This document shows, piece after piece, positions 36,714-47,677 of a DNA stretch of 64,000 nucleotides (positions are counted from its first letter, which is position 1; each line of letters opens with the position of its first letter). Under the pieces are notes generated by a model that was not told the DNA's origin, did no database searches, and saw only the letters and a program-made list of their open reading frames with translations. This DNA comes from Streptomyces sp. NBC_00224. GTDB lineage: Bacteria; Actinomycetota; Actinomycetes; Streptomycetales; Streptomycetaceae. The translations under genes and the position numbers were made by a program. Location of the stretch: the NCBI RefSeq assembly GCF_041435195.1, contig NZ_CP108106.1, positions 806,001 to 870,000 of the forward strand, given 5' to 3'.

Positions 36714-37715
36714 TCACCGCTTCCCCGCCACCTCCCGCAGATACGCGCCGAAGCGGGCGATCGCCGACGGGTTGCGGGGGCTCTCCACCAGGTCGGCGTA
36801 GTCGAGGGTGAAGATGCGCCGGTTCTTGACCGCGGAGACATCCCGCAGAGGGGCGTAGGAGAGCAGGAACTTCTTCTTCGCCTCGGCGCTCACATCGCCG
36901 TAGTCGCAGATGAGGATCACGTCGGGGTTGCGCTGGACGACGCTCTCCCAGCCCACCGTGGTCCAGGAGTCCGCCACGTCGTGCATGACGTTGACGCCGC
37001 CGGACTCGGTGATGATCTGCTCCGGGGCGGCGTAGCGGCCGGAGGTGAAGGGCTGGTCGCGGCCGCTGTCGTAGAGGAAGACCGTGGGCCGGTCGGCGCC
37101 CCGGGGTGCCTTGGCCCCCACGTCCGCGACGCGCTTCTTGAAGTCGGCGATCAGCCGGGTGGCCCGCTCCTCGACGCCGAAGAGCTTGCCCAGGTTGGTC
37201 AGGTCCGCGTAGAGCGCGTCCAGCGGCGGCATGATGCCCCGCGAGGACTTCGTACGGCTGTTGCGGCAGGACTCGGTGAGGACGTACGAGGGGATACCGA
37301 GCTTGCGCAGCGCGTCGGGGGTGAAGCCGCCTTCTTCGCGGAAGCCGTAGCTCCACCCGGCGAAGACGAGGTCGGCGCGGGCGTCCAGGACGTTCTCCTT
37401 GGTGAGCTGGTCCTTCGAGAGCCACTTGACCTTGTCGTAGCCGCCCTTCCAGGGCACGTCGCTCAGGTCGCCCTTGTCGTCGGGCATCGCGAAGCCGGCC
37501 ATCCGGTCCTCAAGGCCCAGGGCCAGCATCAGTTCGGTGATGCCGACGTCGTTGGTGACGACCCGTTCCGGGACCTTGTCGTAGGTCACCTCGCGGCCGC
37601 AGTTGGTGAGGGTGACCGCCGCGGACTTGGTGTCCTGGGACTCGGACCGCTCGACCGACGCACCGCAACCGGTGGTCACGACGAGGCAGACGGAGGCGGC
37701 GAGCAGCTTGCGCAT
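36714..37715 (-). CDS. ABC importer substrate-binding lipoprotein (BtuF/FepB type)
   Basis: 333 residues. The leader ends in VTTGC, so Cys17 should be lipidated. The body matches the two-lobed class III binding fold with a long linking helix used for iron-siderophores and cobalamin: an early DVGITELMLALG segment and a later DVILICDYGD segment. It is the last gene of a permease-ATPase-binding protein operon, 8 bp after the ATPase gene. The cobalamin riboswitch upstream of the operon points to a corrinoid substrate; sequence alone would allow a ferric siderophore. Confidence 0.85.
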   Translation of the reverse strand: MRKLLAASVCLVVTTGCGASVERSESQDTKSAAVTLTNCGREVTYDKVPERVVTNDVGITELMLALGLEDRMAGFAMPDDKGDLSDVPWKGGYDKVKWLSKDQLTKENVLDARADLVFAGWSYGFREEGGFTPDALRKLGIPSYVLTESCRNSRTKSSRGIMPPLDALYADLTNLGKLFGVEERATRLIADFKKRVADVGAKAPRGADRPTVFLYDSGRDQPFTSGRYAAPEQIITESGGVNVMHDVADSWTTVGWESVVQRNPDVILICDYGDVSAEAKKKFLLSYAPLRDVSAVKNRRIFTLDYADLVESPRNPSAIARFGAYLREVAGKR

Positions 37716-37723
37716 GGGCGTCC

Positions 37724-38530
37724 TTACGGAGTGGGCCGGGTGGGCCTGATGGTCGGAAGCAGGTCGAACAGGAGCTGGACGGCGCCCGTGAGGGGATGCC
37801 GTACGCGATGGGCGCGGACGCCGAACACCTCGGCGAGCAGCTCCGGTTGGAGGACGTCGTGCGGGGGCCCGGAGGCCACGATCCGGCCCCCGTCGATGAC
37901 GTACAGCAGGTCGCAGTGGGCCGCGGCGAGGTTGAGATCGTGCAGCGCGGCGAGCACGGTCACCCCGCTCTCGCGGACCAGGGACAGGACGTCCAACTGG
38001 TGGGCGATGTCGAGGTGGTTGGTGGGTTCGTCGAGGACGAGCACCTGCGGCTGCTGGGCGAGCGCGCGGGCGATGAGCACCCGCTGCTTCTCTCCGCCGG
38101 ACAGGCTGAGGATGCCGCGGTCGGCGAGGTGGGCGACGCCGGTGCGCTCCATGGCCCGCGCGCAGATCTCGCGGTCCGAGGCCGCGGTACGGCCCTGGTG
38201 CGGCAGCCGTCCCATGGCGACCACCTCGGCCACCGTGAAGTCGAAGTCGGCCGAGGACTCCTGCGGCAGCGCCGCCAGCACGCGGGCGGCGGCCCGGGGA
38301 TCCATGGCGTGCAGGTCGTCGCCGTCGAGCCGGACCGCTCCCCCGGCGGGCCGCAACGCCCGGTACACCGTGCGCAGCAGAGTCGACTTCCCGCTGCCGT
38401 TGGGGCCGACGAGCCCGACGAACGCCCCGCTGTCCACCGTGAGCCGGACGTCGTCGACCAGCCGGGTACGAGCGGCCTCCACCGTCACGCCGTCGATGTC
38501 GATCCGCACGTCAGCGACCTCCGAACGCAT
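37724..38530 (-). CDS. ABC importer ATP-binding protein (BtuD/FepC type)
   Basis: 268 residues. Walker A GPNGSGKST (about 41-49), signature LSGGEKQR and Walker B VLVLDEPTNHLD are all intact; a downstream switch His is seen in LAALHDLN. This matches the ATPase of cobalamin and siderophore importers. The 5' end overlaps the permease gene by 20 bp, showing tight coupling. The chosen ATG at 38530 gives a normal family length. Confidence 0.9.
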   Translation of the reverse strand: MRSEVADVRIDIDGVTVEAARTRLVDDVRLTVDSGAFVGLVGPNGSGKSTLLRTVYRALRPAGGAVRLDGDDLHAMDPRAAARVLAALPQESSADFDFTVAEVVAMGRLPHQGRTAASDREICARAMERTGVAHLADRGILSLSGGEKQRVLIARALAQQPQVLVLDEPTNHLDIAHQLDVLSLVRESGVTVLAALHDLNLAAAHCDLLYVIDGGRIVASGPPHDVLQPELLAEVFGVRAHRVRHPLTGAVQLLFDLLPTIRPTRPTP

Positions 38531-39566
38531 GGCCGCTCTGCCGCATCAGCAGGACGAACGCGGGGACACCGACCACCGCGGTGATCACCCCTACGGGCAG
38601 TTCGGTCGGGGCGAGCAGCAGCCGGGACAGCACGTCGGCCCAGACGAGGAGCACCGCACCCGCGAGGGGCGCGATCACGAGGACGCGCCGGTGGTCGGCG
38701 CCCACCACCATCCGTACGACATGAGGCACCATCAACCCGACGAACCCGATGGCCCCGCTGACCGCGACGACGGTCCCGGTGACGGCGGCGGTCACGAGGA
38801 ACAGCTCCCGGCGCAGCCGCGAGGGCGGCACGCCCAGCGCGGCCGAGGTCTCGTCCCCCATGGCGAGCGCGTTGAGCGCCTCGGCCCGCCACCGCAGCCA
38901 GATCCACCCGGCCGCCACGGTCACGGCGGCAATCGGCAACTGCGCCCAGGTCGCCCCGCCCAGACTGCCCAGCAGCCACATCATCGCGGACCGGGCGGCC
39001 TCGCCGCGGGCCGCGCCGAACACCATGACGGTGGTGATGGCCTCGAAGCCGTACGCCAGAGCCGTGCCCGTCAGGATCAGCCGCAGCGGCGTCAGCCCAT
39101 GGGGCGAGCGGGCCACGGCGTACACCAGGACCATGGCCGCGAGCGCGGAGACGAACGCGGAGACGGACAGCGCCCACACCCCGAGCCCGGCGAACGCCCC
39201 CAGCAGGATGACGGCGTTGGCGCCCACGGCGGCGCCGGAGGAGATGCCCAGGACGAACGGGTCGGCCAGCGCGTTGCGGACCATCGCCTGCACGGCCACA
39301 CCGACGGCCGCGAGACCCGCCCCGACGACCGCGCCGAGCAGCACTCTTGGCAGACGGATCTCCCAGACGATGGTGTACGAGGCCGCGTCGGCCGCCGCCA
39401 CGGTTCCGCCGGTCAGTCCCGCCCACAGGAAGCGGAGTGTGTCCGCCCAGTCGATGTCGGCGGCTCCGAGCCCGACACCGCACACGAGCGATGCCACGAG
39501 TAAGAACCCAAGGCCGAGGCTGAGGGGCAGCACGGGTATCCGGCTGGCGGCCTTACTTCGGCGCAC
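38511..39566 (-). CDS. ABC importer permease (FecCD/BtuC type)
   Basis: 351 residues with about ten hydrophobic segments. Family landmarks are LPRVLLGAVVGAGLA after the first membrane segments, ADPFVLGISSGAAVGAN, and GFVGLMVPHVVR near the C-terminus. The GTG start at 39566 has GAAGGA about 11 bases upstream. It is the first gene after the cobalamin riboswitch, so riboswitch control should act on the whole importer. Confidence 0.9.
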   Translation of the reverse strand: MRRSKAASRIPVLPLSLGLGFLLVASLVCGVGLGAADIDWADTLRFLWAGLTGGTVAAADAASYTIVWEIRLPRVLLGAVVGAGLAAVGVAVQAMVRNALADPFVLGISSGAAVGANAVILLGAFAGLGVWALSVSAFVSALAAMVLVYAVARSPHGLTPLRLILTGTALAYGFEAITTVMVFGAARGEAARSAMMWLLGSLGGATWAQLPIAAVTVAAGWIWLRWRAEALNALAMGDETSAALGVPPSRLRRELFLVTAAVTGTVVAVSGAIGFVGLMVPHVVRMVVGADHRRVLVIAPLAGAVLLVWADVLSRLLLAPTELPVGVITAVVGVPAFVLLMRQSGHAFGGR

Positions 39567-40618: not shown

Positions 40619-41161
40619 ATGGACCGGGCAAGGAAACGCCTGACACGCAGAGCCGCACTCACCGCCGCCGTGGCAGGAGCCGGCTCTGTCGCCGTCAGCG
40701 TCCCAGCGAGCGGCGCCGCCACCGCGCGGGGCCGTGGCCCCGGGAGCACGGCCCGCACCGATCTGGCCCGGGTCCGCTCGGTCACGGCGGACTCGCTGCA
40801 CGTCGACTTCCCACAAGCGGGCACGCGCACGCGCTCGCTGATGGCGCCTGATGCGCCGGCCTCGCGGGAGACCGTGCCCATGGCGGGGTTTCCCCAGGGC
40901 GTCGTTCCCCGGCCCGGCGACCGTGTGATGGTCACCGACTGGTGGGACGGCAGGGAGACCGCCGCCATACCCGTCGTGTCGTGGGTGACCGGCGTTCCCC
41001 GACCGCTGCGGGACGGCGGGTACCGGGTCGGCGGCCGACGCGCCGCGCCCTCGCCGCTACTGGAGCGCGCGAGCAGAACCGGCACACGTACGGCCGTCTG
41101 CCTGCTGGACACCGAACTGGCGACTGCCCAGGTCATGGCCGTGCGGCCTCCCTCGCGGTGA
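40619..41161 (+). CDS. Tat-type secreted protein of unknown function, first gene of the Mau-like operon
   Basis: 180 residues. N-terminal RKRLTRRAALTAAVAGA has a twin-arginine pair and hydrophobic core, with likely cleavage after an Ala near residue 35. The mature part is a small beta-rich domain (VTDWWDG near 105) with a single Cys near the C-terminus; no family is recognised. The ATG at 40619 follows a good GAGGAGG site. Its stop overlaps the GTG of the MauE-like gene (GTGA), so it is translated with the redox genes and is probably a client or partner of them. It occupies the place of a large subunit but is far too short to be MauB. Confidence 0.75.
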   Translation: MDRARKRLTRRAALTAAVAGAGSVAVSVPASGAATARGRGPGSTARTDLARVRSVTADSLHVDFPQAGTRTRSLMAPDAPASRETVPMAGFPQGVVPRPGDRVMVTDWWDGRETAAIPVVSWVTGVPRPLRDGGYRVGGRRAAPSPLLERASRTGTRTAVCLLDTELATAQVMAVRPPSR

Positions 41162-41682
41162 CGGCCCTCGCGGCGGTGAACGCTCTCGTCCGCCTGGTGG
41201 CAGCCGTGCTGCTCCTCTACGCGGCCGTCCACAAGCTGGCCGCCCCTCGCGCGTTCCGCTCGACCCTCACCACCCTGGGTGTGCCGTGGCCCGCGCCGGT
41301 CTCCGCGGGCGTTCCCGTACTGGAGCTCGCTGCCGGGTTCACCCTGCTGAGCGCTCCGCGCTCGGTGGTGGCCGCCGGGCTGGTGGCCGGGCTGGGGGTG
41401 GCGTTCGCGGTTGCGGGCGTGCTGGCCCTGCGGAGCGGGACGAAGGTGAAGTGCGCCTGCTTCGGCCGGGTCGGGGCCGGTGATCTGGGACTGCGCCAGA
41501 TCGCGGTCCTGCCCCTGTGGGCCGGGGTGGCCGCCGTGGCCCTCCGTACGCCGGAGCAGTCACCGGCCGGGCCTGCGGCAGCGGCAGCCGTGATCTGGGG
41601 ACTGGCGGTGTGCGCGGCCCTGAGGGTGGTGGTGCTGATGCGAAGGAACCGGGAGGACATGCAAGCGATGGTGCCGCAATGA
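41158..41682 (+). CDS. MauE-like redox-associated membrane protein
   Basis: 174 residues, four hydrophobic segments, DoxX/MauE-like. The redox-active pair Cys99/Cys101 is in KCACFG, the typical MauE/VKOR-neighbour motif, followed by a GDLGLRQ-type segment. In methylamine utilisation operons MauE works with MauD to supply or handle disulfides for the light chain. The GTG start overlaps the previous stop by 4 bp, and its own TGA overlaps the next ATG (ATGA), so the order secreted protein-MauE-MauD is strictly coupled. Confidence 0.88.
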   Translation: MTALAAVNALVRLVAAVLLLYAAVHKLAAPRAFRSTLTTLGVPWPAPVSAGVPVLELAAGFTLLSAPRSVVAAGLVAGLGVAFAVAGVLALRSGTKVKCACFGRVGAGDLGLRQIAVLPLWAGVAAVALRTPEQSPAGPAAAAAVIWGLAVCAALRVVVLMRRNREDMQAMVPQ

Positions 41683-42215
41683 TCTTCCTGTGGATCGTGG
41701 TGACGGTTCTGTCCCTGCTCGTGTCGATCTGCCTGATGGCACTGGTGGACCAGTACCAGACCCTGCAACTGATCCGGGGACGGCTGGAGTTGGACGACGC
41801 TCCCGCTCCTGTCGTCATCCCCGGCGACCGCGTGCTCGCGCCGTCTGCCATCGGCCTGCCCGCCGAGCTGGATCACCGGGAGCATCTGGTGGTCCTCTTC
41901 CTCTCGACCACCTGCGCTACGTGTCGGGCTCTTGCGAAGAAGCTCGGCGGCAGGCCCCCGGACAACCTGTGGGTCGTACTCGTGGAGGGCGATGCCGAGC
42001 GGGCCGCCGACTGGTTCGCCGCCGCCGGGCTGCCCCGCACTCGGGCGACGGTGGATCTGGACGGGCGCATCAGCGACGCGTTCGGCCTCGACGTGACCCC
42101 CGCGGCATTCGTCTACCGCCGCGGCGAAGTACTCCTTGGGCAGACCATCCCCTCGTTCCGCCAGCTCGACTCTCTGCTCAGCTCGGACGCCGTGCCGCCG
42201 TCCCTGCTGCCCTGA
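41679..42215 (+). CDS. MauD-like membrane-anchored thioredoxin
   Basis: 178 residues. One N-terminal membrane anchor (residues 3-23) is followed by a thioredoxin fold with active site CATC (Cys79/Cys82) after the strand VVLFLST, and the cis-Pro region in VTPAAFVYR. The catalytic domain should face outside the membrane. In mau operons MauD is needed for correct disulfides in the methylamine dehydrogenase light chain. Coupled to the MauE-like gene by an ATGA overlap; the next gene starts 33 bp later behind its own ribosome site. Confidence 0.88.
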   Translation: MIFLWIVVTVLSLLVSICLMALVDQYQTLQLIRGRLELDDAPAPVVIPGDRVLAPSAIGLPAELDHREHLVVLFLSTTCATCRALAKKLGGRPPDNLWVVLVEGDAERAADWFAAAGLPRTRATVDLDGRISDAFGLDVTPAAFVYRRGEVLLGQTIPSFRQLDSLLSSDAVPPSLLP

Positions 42216-42248: not shown

Positions 42249-42629
42249 ATGAGCACGACCACCGTGTGCAGCCAGTCGACGGGCGTGGCCGCGGCACTTG
42301 AGGAGTGGGACAGCCATCCCGCCCGGCGACGCCGGGTACTGCGGGTCTCGGCCACCGCGTTCATCGCCGGTCTCTCGGCGCTGTTCCTGGGCGACCGGGC
42401 CAACGCCGCGGACTGCCAGGGCTCGCCGTGCTGCAGCCTGGCGAAGTGCGAGGAATGCAGCTACGGGGAAAGCAAGGACCGCTATAGCTGCCCGAGTGGC
42501 TACAACCGCCGAACGTGGAGCTGTGTCAGCGGCAGCAACCGGTACTACTGCGGCGAATGCGCCACGGGCACCGACTGCTGGTCCGGTCCGTTCGCGTGCT
42601 CCATCTGGTTCGGCCCCTCCCCGGCCTGA
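42249..42629 (+). CDS. Cys-rich exported protein resembling methylamine dehydrogenase light chain
   Basis: 126 residues; AAAGGAG precedes the ATG. The leader has four Arg (ARRRRVLR), a hydrophobic core and a probable cleavage site after Ala53. The mature 73 residues contain 11 Cys (56, 61, 62, 67, 70, 81, 92, 101, 104, 110, 117) and Trp at 90, 111 and 120. The CPSGYNRRTWSC stretch is similar to the CPPGS...W...C region around the first cofactor Trp of MauA as I remember it. MauA has a comparable density of disulfides and a Trp-derived cofactor. Its place after MauE and MauD fits a disulfide-rich client. The relation to MauA is inferred; catalytic function is unknown, and no MauB or MauG is in the window. 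Confidence 0.65.
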   Translation: MSTTTVCSQSTGVAAALEEWDSHPARRRRVLRVSATAFIAGLSALFLGDRANAADCQGSPCCSLAKCEECSYGESKDRYSCPSGYNRRTWSCVSGSNRYYCGECATGTDCWSGPFACSIWFGPSPA

Positions 42630-42685
42630 CCGTCTCCCGCAGTCTCCGCACCCTTTCTCCGCACCCTTGAGGGAGCCGAAGCGCC

Positions 42686-43456
42686 ATGCCCCTGGTGGCT
42701 CTGTGGACCGTGAGCCTGGCCGCCGTGGCCGGGTTCGCCCAGTTGTTCAGTCCTTGAGGCCAGTCCTTCATCGGATTCGTCCGCCCCTTCGTGCAAGGGG
42801 ATTCCGACCTCATGCGGCGGCGCAACCTGCGCTTCATCGCCACACTCGCGCTCGCGCACATCGCCGCGGCCGGTTTCATGGTCGCGGTCCTGTACCAGGC
42901 CGGCACGGTGACGTCCGCTCACCTGCCCTCTCACGTACGGGTCGCGGTGTGCGCCGCAGCGGCGGCGGTGGGCATCGTTCTCGACGCCCGCGCCATCAGA
43001 CGGGGCACGTTCACCGTCGGCCTGCGCCGGCAGACGACCAAGAGGCTGTCGGACGGCACGGAAACCGCTCCCGGCTGGGTGACGCCCCTGCTGTGGGGGC
43101 TGGACACGGGGTTGGTGTGGACGACGTTCCGTATGTCGTGCGCGTCATGGGTGCTTCTGTTCAGTTCGCTGCTGACGGTCGCCCCGCAGTGGTCGGGCCT
43201 GGTCTACGGTACGTGCTTCGGCGTCCCGTTGGTCATCGCGACGCTGACCGGGGACCCCGCCGGGATCGGGCGCCGTCGCACGTACTCGCTGACGCGCCTG
43301 ACCCAGACGGCGGGCATCGTGGTCCTGATGCTGTTGCCGCTGGGAATGGCGGGGAGCCACGTCGCGCGGCGGGCGTCGGCCGCCCCCTCAAGCGCTCACC
43401 TCATCGTGAACCCGACCGGATCACCTCCCGGCGGTGATCCGGCAGTCGGCGGGTGA
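42686..43456 (+). CDS. CcdA/MauF-like membrane protein, probable selenoprotein (Sec24 encoded by in-frame TGA)
   Basis: Reading from the ATG at 42686 (GAGGGAG about 10 bases upstream) gives 256 residues if the TGA at 42755-42757 is read as selenocysteine. Residues 4-24 form the first membrane segment ending in FSP-[TGA]-GQ, the place where CcdA/DsbD/MauF proteins carry their first transmembrane redox Cys (SPC or NPC). About five more hydrophobic segments follow. Cys152 in a later membrane helix could be the partner; Cys89 and Cys177 are also present. A hairpin starts 27 bases after the TGA, with its loop 32 bases after. MauF belongs to the CcdA family, and the order E-D-A-F is complete here. 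The selenocysteine genes start within the 3' end. The alternative is a broken gene, or a truncated one starting at GTG 42791; that start would discard the redox residue. It should pass electrons across the membrane to MauD/MauE-type proteins. Confidence 0.75.
42755..42804 (+). promoter_or_regulatory. UGA codon with bacterial SECIS-like hairpin
   Basis: After the TGA at 42755-42757, CCCCTT (42784-42789) pairs perfectly with AAGGGG (42795-42800) around the 5-base loop CGTGC. TCGG near 42771 can pair with CCGA just after the stem. Bacterial SECIS elements recognised by SelB are described as stem-loops about 16-37 bases downstream of UGA with a G among the first two loop bases. Here the loop begins 32 bases after UGA and its second base is G. 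Confidence 0.65.
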
Positions 43457-45164
43457 GGCCCTGTTCGTCCAGGTGGTTGAGCATAGGCAGAGACACCCGG
43501 CGGGTGGTGTCGAGCGCGCGGCTCGCGGCGCCCACGGTGAACGGCTGTGCCAGCCGCCCCACTTGTACCAGGGCACGTGCCGGGGCGTCTGGCAACAGGA
43601 CGATCCCGGGCGCGAGACACAGCAGCAGACCCGCGCGGGTCGCTGCCCGGATCTCCCGCTCCCCCAGGCCGAGTTCCGCCAGGCGCGGTGCCGCCGGAGC
43701 CCGGAACGGAGCCTGCTCCAGATCGGCGCACACCTGCCGTACCGCGTCGCGGAGCGCTTGCGGCACACCGGCGGATCGGTGCACGATCCTGCCCGCGCGC
43801 ACCTCAAGAGGCGCCCGGACCAGAGCCTGGACCAGGGCGCGATCGGGCAGCTGGAGCTGGAGCCGGGCCGTCTCCAGCGGCAGGCCGTCCGCGTAGGGCC
43901 GCTCCTCGGCGAAGTCGGCCACCAGCGTGGTCAGGCGGTGGAACAGTTCCTGCCAGTACGCGGGGTCGGCAAGCCAGTCCCCGCTCACCGGATCACGGGT
44001 GACCGCCACACCCATGGCCTCCAGCAGGGGGCGGCGTATCAGGCGTCGGCGGGCGAGTTCCGTCGCTTCGGTCGGGGTGCCGGCGAGCTGTGCGAGCTCG
44101 CGGGCCCGTGTGGCGGCGGCTCCCCGGCGGCGCAGTTCGGGCGGGCGGACGTCGAGGACGGTCACTCCCGCGCTGATCGCCTGGCGGCCGGGGTCGCGCA
44201 GCAGTGCCCGGTCGCCGAGGCGCAGCGGGAGCGCGGGGGTGAAGGAGAGCCGGGCGGCGCCGTGGCCGAGCGGGCGAAGGTGCACGGTGCGAGCGGCCGC
44301 TCCGATGTGCAGCGTGAGCGTCCGGGGCAGCCGGCCGGCGTCGGTGCCGTGCAGGCGGACGTCGCACACGGTGGTCTGGATGAACTGCCCCGGCGTGAGA
44401 AGGGCTTCACCCCGTGGGAGGGCGCCGTGAGCGGGGCCGCGCAGATTGAGGGCGACGCGGGCGGGCGCGGTGACCGTGGGTGTGTCCCGCTCCAGGGTCT
44501 GGATGCCCCGCACCTTGGCCCGCAGCCCCTGCGGGGCGGTGACGAGTTCGTCCTCCACATCGATGCGCCCCCGGGGCAGGGTTCCGGTGACCACCAGGCC
44601 CGCCCCGCGCACGGTGAAGGCCCGGTCCACCCACAGGCGCACCGCGCCCGACGGGTCCGGTGCGGGGATGCGGTGGACGAGCCGGGCGAGGCCGCGCCGC
44701 AGGTGGTCGAGCCCGTGGCCGGTCTTCGCGCTGACCGTGACGGAATCGACGCGGCCCAGCGAGGTGGCGCGGATCTCGGCCAGTGCCCGTACACGGGCGG
44801 GGGCGGGGTCCGCGAGATCGCTGCGGGTGATCACGAGCAGGCCGTGGCGCACGTCGAGGGCGTCCAGGGCGGCGAGGTGCTCGGCGGACTGGGGCATCCA
44901 CCCCCCGTCGGCCGCCACGACGATCATCACGGCCGCCACGGGGCCGATACCGGCGAGCATGTTCGCAACGAAGCGTTCGTGCCCGGGGACGTCGACAAAG
45001 GCGATGGTCTCCCCCGAACCGAGGGTGGTCCAGGCGAAGCCGAGGTCGATGGTCAGCCGCCTGCGCCGCTCCTCGGCGAGCCGGTCGGGATCGCGTCCGG
45101 TCAGGGCCCGTACGAGGGTGCTCTTGCCGTGGTCGACGTGGCCGGCCGTGGCGACGACGTGCAT
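43401..45164 (-). CDS. selB: Selenocysteine-specific elongation factor SelB
   Basis: 587 residues. The GTPase domain starts at once with GHVDHGKST, followed by DVPGHERF (G3) and later switch motifs, then EF-Tu-like beta barrels and C-terminal winged-helix repeats that bind the SECIS hairpin. The ATG at 45164 is chosen because the protein then starts MHVVATAGHVDHGK as in the family, and it nearly abuts the selA stop. Its last 56 bp overlap the convergent MauF-like gene. It delivers Sec-tRNA to UGA codons marked by a hairpin. Confidence 0.95.
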   Translation of the reverse strand: MHVVATAGHVDHGKSTLVRALTGRDPDRLAEERRRRLTIDLGFAWTTLGSGETIAFVDVPGHERFVANMLAGIGPVAAVMIVVAADGGWMPQSAEHLAALDALDVRHGLLVITRSDLADPAPARVRALAEIRATSLGRVDSVTVSAKTGHGLDHLRRGLARLVHRIPAPDPSGAVRLWVDRAFTVRGAGLVVTGTLPRGRIDVEDELVTAPQGLRAKVRGIQTLERDTPTVTAPARVALNLRGPAHGALPRGEALLTPGQFIQTTVCDVRLHGTDAGRLPRTLTLHIGAAARTVHLRPLGHGAARLSFTPALPLRLGDRALLRDPGRQAISAGVTVLDVRPPELRRRGAAATRARELAQLAGTPTEATELARRRLIRRPLLEAMGVAVTRDPVSGDWLADPAYWQELFHRLTTLVADFAEERPYADGLPLETARLQLQLPDRALVQALVRAPLEVRAGRIVHRSAGVPQALRDAVRQVCADLEQAPFRAPAAPRLAELGLGEREIRAATRAGLLLCLAPGIVLLPDAPARALVQVGRLAQPFTVGAASRALDTTRRVSLPMLNHLDEQGLTRRLPDHRREVIRSGSR

Positions 45165-45165
45165 G

Positions 45166-46482
45166 TCAGGCTCCCGCCGCTCGCAGCACGGCTTCGAGGA
45201 TGTGCGTATCACTGGGCTCGGGGACGCAGCGGAGGTCCAGCAGCAGTCGGCCGTGGAGCACACGGCCGATCACGGGCGGAGTGCCGGTGCGCAGGGCGCC
45301 CGCGAAGTCGGGCGGCAGAGCGACAGCGCAGGAAGGCAGCGCCGTCCCCGGTGCACCGCCGCCTCCGACGACGGCATCGGCGGCGACGACCTGCGCGTCG
45401 ATGCCGTGGGAGCGCAAGGACGCGGCGAGCCGCTCGGAGCGCTCCTCAAGCTCGGCCAGGGGCAGGCGCAGAGCCTGCCGCACAGGCGGCTCGGGTCCGG
45501 TCAGGGTGGCTTCCAGGGCGGCGAGGGTGAGCTTGTCGACCCGCATGGCACGAGCGAGCGGATGACGTCTGAGACGGTCGACTTCGGCTTCGGTTCCGAA
45601 GACGAGGCCGGCCTGCGGTCCGCCGAGGAGTTTGTCGCCGCTGGCGATGACGAGGCCGGCCCCCTCGCTCAGAGCGGTGCTCACGTCGGGTTCGTCGGGG
45701 AGAAGGGGCTCTGGGGCCAGCAGTCCTGATCCTATGTCCGCGACGACGGGCAGGCCCAGGGAGGCGAGTTCGCAAAGGCCAGCCTCGGCGGTGAAACCGC
45801 GGACGATGAAATTGGACGGGTGGATCTTGAGGATGAAGGCGGTCTGCGGTCCGACGGCCGCGGCGTAGTCACTGAGCCGGGTGCGGTTGGTCGTCCCCAC
45901 CTCCCGGATCCTCGCACCGGTCGCGGTGAGCAGTTCGTGGATCCGAAAGCCGTCCCCGATCTCCACGAACTCGCCCCGGCTGAGGAGGATTTCCCGTCCC
46001 GCGGCCAGGGCGGTCGCCGCCAGCGTCAGCGCGGCGGCGCCGTTGTTGACGACATGGACCGCCTGGGCACCCGGTACGGCGTGCCGCAAGGCGCTGAGCG
46101 CGGAGCGCCCGCGGCGGGCACGGCGCCCGCTGTCCAGATCGAGCTCCACGTCCGTGCATCCGGAGGCGGCCGCCACCGCCTCCACCGCTGCCCGCGAGAG
46201 CGGGGCGCGACCGAGGTTGGTGTGCACGATCACCCCCGTCGCGTTGTGGACCGGGCGCAGCCCCGACGCCTGGCCGGGCAGCGCGGCCAGGACCGCGCCG
46301 ACGACGTCCTGCGGCTTCACGTTCCCCTGCCGCACCGCCTGTTGTACGGACTGGACGGTTTTTTTGACCATCGCTCTGCCCAGCCGCGCGATGGCCGCCT
46401 GCAAGAGAGGGTCGTCCAGTACGACGGCCGTGCTCGGCACGCTGCGCCGGGGATCCGGCTCGCCCCGCACGGCCTGGTCCAC
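45166..46482 (-). CDS. selA: L-seryl-tRNA(Sec) selenium transferase SelA
   Basis: 438 residues from a GTG at 46482. A PLP enzyme of the aspartate aminotransferase fold; the cofactor Lys284 lies in SGDKLLGGPQAG, the SelA signature. The N-terminal helical domain that grips tRNA-Sec is present (VVLDDPLLQAA near 20), and N(A)TGVIVHTNLGR marks the PLP domain entry. It converts Ser-tRNA-Sec to Sec-tRNA-Sec with selenophosphate. Its stop is one base from the selB ATG, and its start is 24 bp after the tRNA gene, so tRNA-selA-selB are probably co-transcribed. Confidence 0.96.
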   Translation of the reverse strand: MDQAVRGEPDPRRSVPSTAVVLDDPLLQAAIARLGRAMVKKTVQSVQQAVRQGNVKPQDVVGAVLAALPGQASGLRPVHNATGVIVHTNLGRAPLSRAAVEAVAAASGCTDVELDLDSGRRARRGRSALSALRHAVPGAQAVHVVNNGAAALTLAATALAAGREILLSRGEFVEIGDGFRIHELLTATGARIREVGTTNRTRLSDYAAAVGPQTAFILKIHPSNFIVRGFTAEAGLCELASLGLPVVADIGSGLLAPEPLLPDEPDVSTALSEGAGLVIASGDKLLGGPQAGLVFGTEAEVDRLRRHPLARAMRVDKLTLAALEATLTGPEPPVRQALRLPLAELEERSERLAASLRSHGIDAQVVAADAVVGGGGAPGTALPSCAVALPPDFAGALRTGTPPVIGRVLHGRLLLDLRCVPEPSDTHILEAVLRAAGA

Positions 46483-46506: not shown

Positions 46507-46599
46507 CGGAGGCGGACGGGAATCGAACCCGCCTGACCCGGATGCCGGATCACACCGATTTTGAAGATCGGGAGGGGCACCAGCCGCCCTAACGCCTCC
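46507..46599 (-). tRNA. selC: tRNA-Sec (anticodon TCA)
   Basis: 93 bases, read on the minus strand. The acceptor stem begins GGAGGCG and closes with CGCCTCC plus a G discriminator, as in tRNA-Sec. The anticodon arm is CCGAT-CTTCAAA-ATCGG with TCA at 46562-46564. A very long variable arm (TGATCCGG paired with CCGGGTCA around a 3-base loop) and a T arm with GGTTCGATTCC follow. CCA is not encoded. Its place between selA and selD fits. Confidence 0.97.
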
Positions 46600-46657: not shown

Positions 46658-47677
46658 ATGACGGGACATGAGGTGTCATCAGCGCCCCGATTGACGTCGT
46701 ACGCGCACGGCGGCGGATGCGCGTGCAAGATTCCCCCCGGTGAACTGGAACAAATCGTCGGCGGGCTGAGCGCCGGGGGCGCCGAGAACCCCGAAGCCGA
46801 ACTACTCGTCGGCCTCGACACCGGCGACGACGCCGCCGTGGTCCGTATCTCCCCCACCACCGCGCTCGTCTCGACCGCCGACTTCTTCACCCCTGTCGTC
46901 GACGATGCCTACGACTGGGGCCGTATCGCCGCGGCCAACGCCCTCTCCGATGTGTACGCGATGGGCGGGCGCCCCGTCACCGCCGTCAATCTGCTCGGCT
47001 GGCCGCGCGACGTGCTTCCCTTCGAGCTGGCCGGCGAGGTGCTGCGCGGCGCACTCGACGTCGCGCACAGCGCGGGCTGCCATGTCGCGGGCGGTCACAG
47101 CGTCGACGACCCCGAGCCCAAGTACGGCATGGCCGTCACCGGCCTGGTGCACCCCGATCGCATTCTGCGCAACAGCACCGGCCGGGCAGGGCTTCCCCTG
47201 ACGCTGACCAAGCCGCTCGGCGTGGGCGTCCTCAACAACCGGCACAGGACGACCGGCGAGATCTTCCCGCATGCCGTCGCTTCCATGACCGCCCTCAACG
47301 ACCGGGCCGGCGCCCAGGCCCTGGAGGCCGGCGTCGAATGCGCCACCGACATCACCGGTTTCGGCCTCCTGGGCCACCTGTACAAACTGGCCCGGGCCTC
47401 TCACGTCTCCGCCACCGTGTACGCGGCGGCCGTCCCCTACCTAGACGGCGCTCGCTGCTCGCTGCGGGCCGGATACGTCAGCGGAGGAACCCGCCGCAAT
47501 CTGGACTGGGTGCGCCCCCATCTCGATGCCGGCGACACCGCCGAGGAAGAACTCCTCCTGCTCGCCGACGCCCAGACATCAGGCGGCCTGCTCATCGTCG
47601 GCGAGATCCCCGGCCATCCCGTCATCGGCGAACTCGGCCCCGCCTCGGGCGCGGGCGCGGTCGTCACCGTCGTCTGA
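46658..47677 (+). CDS. selD: Selenophosphate synthetase SelD (selenide, water dikinase)
   Basis: 339 residues. The N-terminal glycine-rich loop HGGGCACKI carries the catalytic pair Cys21 and Lys24 (equivalent to Cys17/Lys20 of the E. coli enzyme), so this copy uses Cys, not Sec. The following AIR-synthase-like domains include DTGDDAAVVR, DFFTPVVDD and GGHSVDDPEPKYG, which bind ATP and magnesium. It makes selenophosphate for SelA. Transcribed divergently from tRNA-Sec/selA/selB across only 58 bp, which must hold both promoters. Confidence 0.96.
   Translation: MTGHEVSSAPRLTSYAHGGGCACKIPPGELEQIVGGLSAGGAENPEAELLVGLDTGDDAAVVRISPTTALVSTADFFTPVVDDAYDWGRIAAANALSDVYAMGGRPVTAVNLLGWPRDVLPFELAGEVLRGALDVAHSAGCHVAGGHSVDDPEPKYGMAVTGLVHPDRILRNSTGRAGLPLTLTKPLGVGVLNNRHRTTGEIFPHAVASMTALNDRAGAQALEAGVECATDITGFGLLGHLYKLARASHVSATVYAAAVPYLDGARCSLRAGYVSGGTRRNLDWVRPHLDAGDTAEEELLLLADAQTSGGLLIVGEIPGHPVIGELGPASGAGAVVTVV

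Follow-up and report, generated by a model that had tools for sequence, protein, structure and literature searches.

A stretch of 64,000 nucleotides (hereafter the window) from the 9.18-Mb genome of Streptomyces sp. NBC_00224 contains, at positions 42,686 to 43,456, a 256-codon gene for a predicted multi-helix membrane protein that is interrupted at codon 24 by an in-frame TGA. We infer from the sequences of the gene and its relatives that selenocysteine (Sec) is likely inserted at this codon, and the gene very probably represents a new selenoprotein family. Its function can be named with less assurance: with the TGA decoded as Sec, the product would probably be a membrane electron carrier resembling CcdA, in which Sec is the working residue and disulfides are the substrate.

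A preliminary description of the window had proposed a Sec-containing CcdA-like protein, and re-reading of the DNA agrees with its account of the gene. The frame runs from an ATG at 42686 to a TGA at 43454-43456 with a single internal stop, a good ribosome-binding site (GAGGGAG) stands ahead of the start, the TGA lies in the Ser-Pro-[X]-Gly context described, and the selenocysteine genes (selB, selA, tRNA-Sec and selD, by gene and tRNA calls) are immediately adjacent. A frame left open but for a single TGA would be unremarkable in itself, long frames being numerous on either strand of the window. It is the conservation of the TGA at the same column across related loci that goes beyond chance.

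Eight loci – the recognized relatives with DNA over the site – were compared: the window; Streptomyces sp. WM4235 (L016, 77% identity to the window protein); Embleya sp. NBC_00888 (L036, 57%), on a 5.7-Mb record labeled as a plasmid; L022 (33%), from a different actinobacterial family; a 387-kb linear plasmid of Streptomyces anthocyanicus NBC 01636 (L038, 28%) together with L072 and L073 of the same subfamily (28% each); and a remote member from Nonomuraea gerenzanensis (L039, 21%). All eight have TGA, and never TAA or TAG, at this column (codon 24 in L016 and L036; position 4628 in L039). The protein context is conserved as well: it reads FSP-U-G (U being Sec) in six loci, YSP-U-G in one and is divergent in one, and the motif SP-U-GxSxxG spans the TGA in seven of the eight. 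L022 reads FVQLFSP-TGA-GLSFLG and preserves G-x-S-F-x-G after the TGA despite two synonymous changes, L038 reads ILQVFSP-TGA-GQSMAG, and the sites of L072 and L073 are VFSP-TGA-GQS and VYSP-TGA-GQS. For the remote L039, the frame starting directly after the TGA is the best of 874 frames (from five loci) against the family profile (E 6.6e-7; the next scores 1.5). Residues identical in all eight loci (window numbering) are A12, A15, S22, G30, D100, R115, Q116, L135, G138, T147 and P167. Other candidates (L012, L013, L014, L015, L019 and L020) were unrelated when read, and L021/L074 is not counted: its profile match covers only 36 residues (22.5 bits), and it has neither the core motifs nor the site.

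Database relatives number 13 by protein search and 24 in total by profile search, one of them being the window's own protein (P0003). Because TGA occupies the column in the DNA of all eight loci, these proteins start only downstream of it: this is true for 23 of the 24, and the other (P0024) does not line up with the family over its N-terminal third. The conserved protein sequence (FSP-U-GxS) nonetheless crosses the TGA ahead of any start codon. An open reading frame from Fodinicola (P0095) runs from the Cys-rich protein described below into GFAQLFSP and ends exactly there, the identity of its stop codon not being seen. The preliminary description had asked whether homologs have Cys at the Sec column, and had named as contrary evidence homologs that align only further downstream or lack both Cys and TGA there. 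Database homologs do align only downstream, which the TGA in eight of eight loci explains; as to the column itself, every locus was found to have TGA, though none has Cys.

The genes for decoding Sec are found in the same genome for all eight loci. In seven (the window, L016, L036, L038, L039, L072 and L073) tRNA-Sec is close to the selenoprotein gene and sel genes adjoin it, selB and selD of L016, L036 and L039 having been identified by reading lists of open reading frames. In L022 there are no adjacent sel genes within 12 kb, and the TGA is therefore not merely a by-product of sel neighbors; on a different contig of the L022 genome, tRNA-Sec (64.6 bits) and SelB (329.5 bits, exceeding the cut-off) are encoded some 2 kb from each other. 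In Embleya and Nonomuraea a gene that by eye resembles cysteine desulfurase (YLDYNATTP / YLDHNATTP; L036:2891-4063 and L039:10788-11993), perhaps a selenium donor for SelD, lies next to the sel region or inside it. A further plasmid, from Streptomyces sp. NBC_00080, has a selA-like match that is only 71% complete (L042:12001-12927) and no tRNA-Sec in 25 kb; it is perhaps a decayed sel locus.

Conservation of the TGA also bears on readings in which it is not translated, and on this ground we reject them. The TGA might be a true stop, ending a 23-residue membrane leader peptide that is followed by a separate protein starting from GTG at codon 36 through coupled reinitiation. Database gene callers do annotate the downstream part, and the GTG at 42791 is a possible start; yet the stop is always TGA (8/8), sel genes are adjacent in 7/8, and the GxSxxG that separates the TGA from the window's next start codon is conserved, with synonymous change in L022, all of which makes this arrangement highly improbable. 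A lone internal stop in a single genome is the usual sign of a sequencing error or a decaying pseudogene. Here the identical TGA recurs in independent genomes, for which a shared assembly artefact is not credible, and past the first 17 codons after the TGA the window and L016 show a purifying pattern (61 synonymous versus 50 other codon changes), leaving error and decay with a negligible probability.

The RNA after the TGA offers a candidate signal. A published model of the bacterial selenocysteine insertion sequence (bSECIS) specifies a loop of 3-9 nt, a stem of 4-16 bp, G in the first two loop positions, a distance of 16-37 nt from the UGA and a minimum free energy of at most -7.5 kcal/mol (PMC13188914, in the part covered here). 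Hairpins of bSECIS geometry, with G then G or U at the start of the loop, follow the TGA in all eight loci at 17-32 nt: the loop is CGUGC at 32 nt in three loci including the window (-7.3 kcal/mol), GUCGUGAAG at 27 nt in one (-5.5), GGUCG at 17 nt in three (-9.5 to -12.2) and GGUCU at 32 nt in one (-11.8). Synonymous change is nearly absent from the first 17 codons past the TGA when the three closest loci are compared: identical and synonymous codons number 15/0 versus 62/51 elsewhere between the window and L036 (p 3.8e-4), 14/1 versus 54/57 between L016 and L036 (p 8e-4), and 16/1 versus 90/67 between the window and L016 (p 0.003).

The selenoprotein gene is the last of a closely packed set on the plus strand (Table 1), of which three members – a MauE family protein, a membrane-anchored redoxin and an exported Cys-rich protein – accompany it in seven of the eight loci. 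In L038 these partners were recognized by annotation, Pfam and reading; in L072 and L073 profiles picked out all three, with a weak match for the Cys-rich protein (E 1.7e-4 and 2.8e-3; 409 frames). The cysteines that would serve in redox exchange are kept: C99 and C101 of MauE in 4/4, and C79 and C82 of the redoxin in 4/4. In the Cys-rich protein C61, C62, C70, C81, C92, C101, C104, C110 and C117 are invariant, as are W90 and E103, across 49 aligned sequences (46 of 89 relatives found, plus the window, L016 and L022). In the databases, Cys-rich proteins and N-terminally incomplete Sec proteins pair by locus tag (VF062_25270/25275) and also by the length of their contigs.

Table 1. Features of the Sec locus, in window positions.
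Feature	Position	Strand	Evidence
Small exported protein with twin-arginine-like leader, opening the set	40619..41161	+	No Pfam match
MauE family membrane protein	41158..41682	+	PF07291, E 1.5e-17; CxC invariant in 4/4
Membrane-anchored redoxin (MauD/TlpA-like position), CATC	41679..42215	+	Weak thioredoxin matches; CxTC invariant in 4/4
Exported Cys-rich protein, twin-arginine-like leader; likely substrate	42249..42629	+	Nine invariant Cys
Ribosome-binding site GAGGGAG	42669..42675	+	Read from sequence
Selenoprotein gene, 256 codons with internal TGA; predicted multi-helix membrane protein	42686..43456	+	Frame reading, model, relatives
In-frame TGA, putative Sec codon 24	42755..42757	+	Kept in 8/8 loci
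Candidate bSECIS hairpin CCCCTT-CGTGC-AAGGGG	42784..42800	+	32 nt between TGA and apical loop, which begins C-G-U
selB	43401..45161	-	Pfam/NCBIfam matches; convergent, 3' end overlaps selenoprotein gene by 56 bases
selA	45166..46482	-	Pfam/NCBIfam matches
tRNA-Sec (TCA anticodon)	46508..46599	-	tRNA search, 74.1 bits
selD, without internal TGA	46658..47677	+	Pfam/NCBIfam matches

Counterparts of the small exported protein that opens the set were seen by eye in L016, L036 and L022 and were not found in the L072 or L073 loci. After the selenoprotein gene, L016, L036 and L022 have another small exported protein (L016:8677-9216, L036:8712-9203, L022:9911-10534) with a shared C-terminal GC[WY].[VL]TA, noted by eye; two of the three are without Pfam match, and the protein is missing from the window, where selB overlaps instead. 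L038 has two more small genes between the selenoprotein gene and tRNA-Sec/selD (L038:6519-7237). Several relatives of the Cys-rich protein (P0098, P0105, P0108, P0110, P0111 and P0113) carry a precomputed PF01476 domain, which we take to be LysM and which would hint at a cell-wall location for them. Upstream of the operon, on the minus strand, the window encodes what reads from the list of open reading frames as an ATP-binding cassette importer of the iron/siderophore type (substrate-binding protein, ATPase and permease; 36714-39566).

The set is reminiscent of MauF-MauE-MauD: it has MauE (by Pfam), a redoxin, an exported Cys-rich protein and a membrane protein. It differs from a methylamine dehydrogenase cluster in that neither heavy nor light chain was detected, in searches made without a positive control: PF02975 turned up in none of 296 genomes (the source genome included) and PF06433 in neither of two. 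The idea that the Cys-rich protein is itself the light chain, suggested by sequence and gene order, found no support in Pfam, in a sequence search of the PDB or in a fold search (with a modest model; predicted local distance difference test, pLDDT, 69).

The likeness to CcdA concerns the first helix and the general plan of the protein. An AlphaFold2 model built from 24 sequences (pLDDT 82, predicted template modeling score 0.76) places helices at 2-20, 23-36, 41-79, 82-106, 132-142, 152-162, 170-188 and 199-232. These suggest six membrane passes, two of which look interrupted: the first at S22-P23-U24 and the fourth around 143-151. In CcdA and DsbD each helix break holds a redox site, and the predicted topology would resemble that plan, 2-20/23-36 and 132-142/152-162 being the interrupted helices. 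The window protein and CcdA are both small multi-helix membrane proteins with SP-[C/U] in helix 1; most CcdA proteins of the window's relatives (fetched by PF02683 from 21/21 genomes) have the same FSP, reading GGLVSFFSPCVLPLVPG. In hhalign comparisons, with Sec entered as C, FSPU aligned with the SPC of 20 CcdA sequences locally (residues 8-29, E 0.0017, probability 15.6); the global profile score was higher (E 1e-5, probability 62), although the local score deserves more weight: the CcdA sequences had been cut 24 residues ahead of SPC, which presets the register and favors the global score.

In the reading we prefer, Sec would sit at the break in the first transmembrane helix, at the position of the first catalytic Cys of CcdA. 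As there is no counterpart of the second CcdA Cys, and as two relatives are free of Cys, Sec would act alone, entering a mixed Se-S bond either with the CxC motif of MauE or with the CxTC motif of the redoxin. The steps that follow are the least certain: electrons would cross the membrane outward and keep the redoxin active, and the redoxin would make or reshuffle disulfides in the exported Cys-rich protein. The CcdA-like site leads us to favor an outward, reductive flow, CcdA being a reductive carrier. A similar role is ascribed to MauF, MauE and MauD, maturation proteins of methylamine dehydrogenase, with respect to the light chain of that enzyme.

A number of results tell against this interpretation, in respect either of Sec insertion or of the role of CcdA-like carrier. 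The bSECIS limit of -7.5 kcal/mol is reached in only four of the eight loci (the window, at -7.3, is not among them), among 2831 control TGAs 472 are followed by a hairpin of this loop type at -5.5 kcal/mol or lower, a hairpin as stable as that of the gene is present at 211 of the 1094 TGAs of the window, and the 58-nt segment folds no more stably than its shuffled versions (z -0.76); the hairpin for these reasons supports Sec insertion and does not prove it. Suppression of synonymous change is not significant between the window and L022 (p 0.69), nor in any of the three pairs within the second subfamily, that of L038, L072 and L073 (p 0.12 to 0.53). Cys was found at the Sec column in none of the eight loci, no residue is aligned there in any of the 24 database proteins, and a family with no Cys form is unusual, nearly all known selenoproteins having one; according to the authors of deep-Sep, Cys homologs now seem to exist for every known selenoprotein, and their own method may miss any that lack them (PMC12013277, in the part covered). 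In L039 a profile search found neither MauE nor the Cys-rich protein, and its redoxin match is weak (E 0.027, 874 frames). The window protein has no Pfam or NCBIfam match, and none of the 24 members matches PF02683 (Pfam, E up to 10). The second catalytic Cys, in helix 4, is absent, and no Cys is invariant across the eight loci; the L038 and L073 proteins encode none at all, and Sec is therefore the sole chalcogen residue common to all eight. Foldseek ranked CcdA (5vkv) eleventh among PDB structures (E 0.58, probability 0.63, template modeling scores 0.35/0.39), which is not discriminating, and CcdA is not among the 50 rows listed by VIA, which says nothing either way. Judged by the profile search and the second Cys, membership of the protein in CcdA/DsbD (PF02683) is not supported. 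Of the CcdA-like character proposed in the preliminary description, what stands is the alignment of FSPU with SPC at the helix-1 break, and with it the placing of the TGA at the position of the catalytic Cys; what is lacking is a family match and the conserved Cys partner in helix 4.

Two other roles can be considered for the same selenoprotein. It might work in the opposite direction, the Sec protein and MauE together forming an oxidase like DsbB or the vitamin K epoxide reductase VKOR that draws electrons from the redoxin so that disulfides form in the Cys-rich protein. The candidate substrate with its nine invariant Cys would need net oxidation, and the decRiPPter authors, citing earlier work, mention speculation that MauE acts in disulfide formation (PMC7794033, in the part covered); against this, the site resembles that of CcdA, and we hold the oxidase to be unlikely, if clearly worth considering. 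Sec could also be a ligand for a metal, a metalloid or another membrane substrate, and a structure-search Z at the level obtained may reflect a mere common arrangement of helices. Such a role seems decidedly improbable given neighbors of redox type (MauE, the CxxC redoxin and the Cys-rich protein).

The preliminary description had suggested that the family is undescribed, and within the sources compared it is. A 2026 inventory of prokaryotic selenoproteins gives 119 families and subfamilies, and a protein of this type is absent from its Table 1 (PMC13188914). Matched against the selenoprotein families of NCBIfam 20, the window protein gave no hits, and the 24 members gave only stray ones (best E 0.033). 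The nearest entries of the inventory are TsoB (rhodanese/DsbD fusion-like, NF045694), YeeE/YedE and SO_0444 (PMC13188914, Table 1): like the window protein they are predicted membrane (or membrane-linked) selenoproteins, one of them DsbD-like in part, but the window protein and its 23 relatives match none of their NCBIfam models, and the Sec motifs differ. Searches of the open literature combining selenium with methylamine utilization, MauE, MauF or DsbD returned nothing on such a protein (subscription papers, Haft's included, lay outside the scope), and none of the best 20 of 33 matches for CcdA or bSECIS with selenoprotein concerned one. Nor was one met in the parts covered of PMC5029168 (tables included), PMC8211752, PMC1242214, PMC12013277, PMC9312934, PMC2474590 and PMC5330540. 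The decRiPPter study describes Streptomyces clusters with mauE, one also with mauD, and Cys-rich precursors (at least 8 Cys), which were taken for candidates for ribosomally synthesized and post-translationally modified peptides (PMC7794033). Compared by description only, they share mauE, mauD (in one cluster) and a small Cys-rich protein with the window set, and differ in that selenium or a TGA protein goes unmentioned in the part of the paper covered.

The family is rare and scattered in the samples searched. Relatives were present in 3 of 394 genomes of the same bacterial family and in 2 of 396 of the phylum, the source genome included in both; before reading, matches had numbered 7/394 (real: G000, G319 and G001) and 5/396 (real: G000 and G502). 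Further samples gave 1/392 (the source genome), 1/129 (G502 itself) and 1/296 (the source genome). Since queries and cut-offs differed among samples, these counts are not rates. Among viral contigs and phages no relative was found.

The distribution of Sec genes invites comparison with formate dehydrogenase. A formate dehydrogenase lies beside the sel genes on Arthrobacter and Tsukamurella plasmids, whereas in the window the mau-like operon holds that place, and Streptomyces incarnatus is reported to have a Sec formate dehydrogenase with selABCD (PMC4498112, in the part covered). The source genome has five places with molybdopterin domains, none with an internal stop; a Sec formate dehydrogenase was therefore not seen in it. 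We consider it an even chance that the locus is an obligately Sec-dependent disulfide system, with no Cys form, carried as a cassette with its own selA, selB, tRNA-Sec and selD, and that it is this system, rather than formate dehydrogenase, that keeps the Sec trait alive. In one case (L038) the cassette is on the 387-kb linear Streptomyces plasmid.

If these interpretations are correct, one more family would stand beside the 119, a CcdA-type carrier having Sec within a membrane-spanning helix. It would also provide a test of why Sec is retained: having one chalcogen, such a carrier must run entirely on the exchange of Se-S bonds between molecules. Sec finders that work by homology depend on a relative with Cys and may overlook this family (cf. 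the deep-Sep authors, PMC12013277, in the part covered), so that families without one may hide as truncated hypothetical proteins. Soil actinobacteria, finally, would have a reason besides formate dehydrogenase for keeping Sec decoding.
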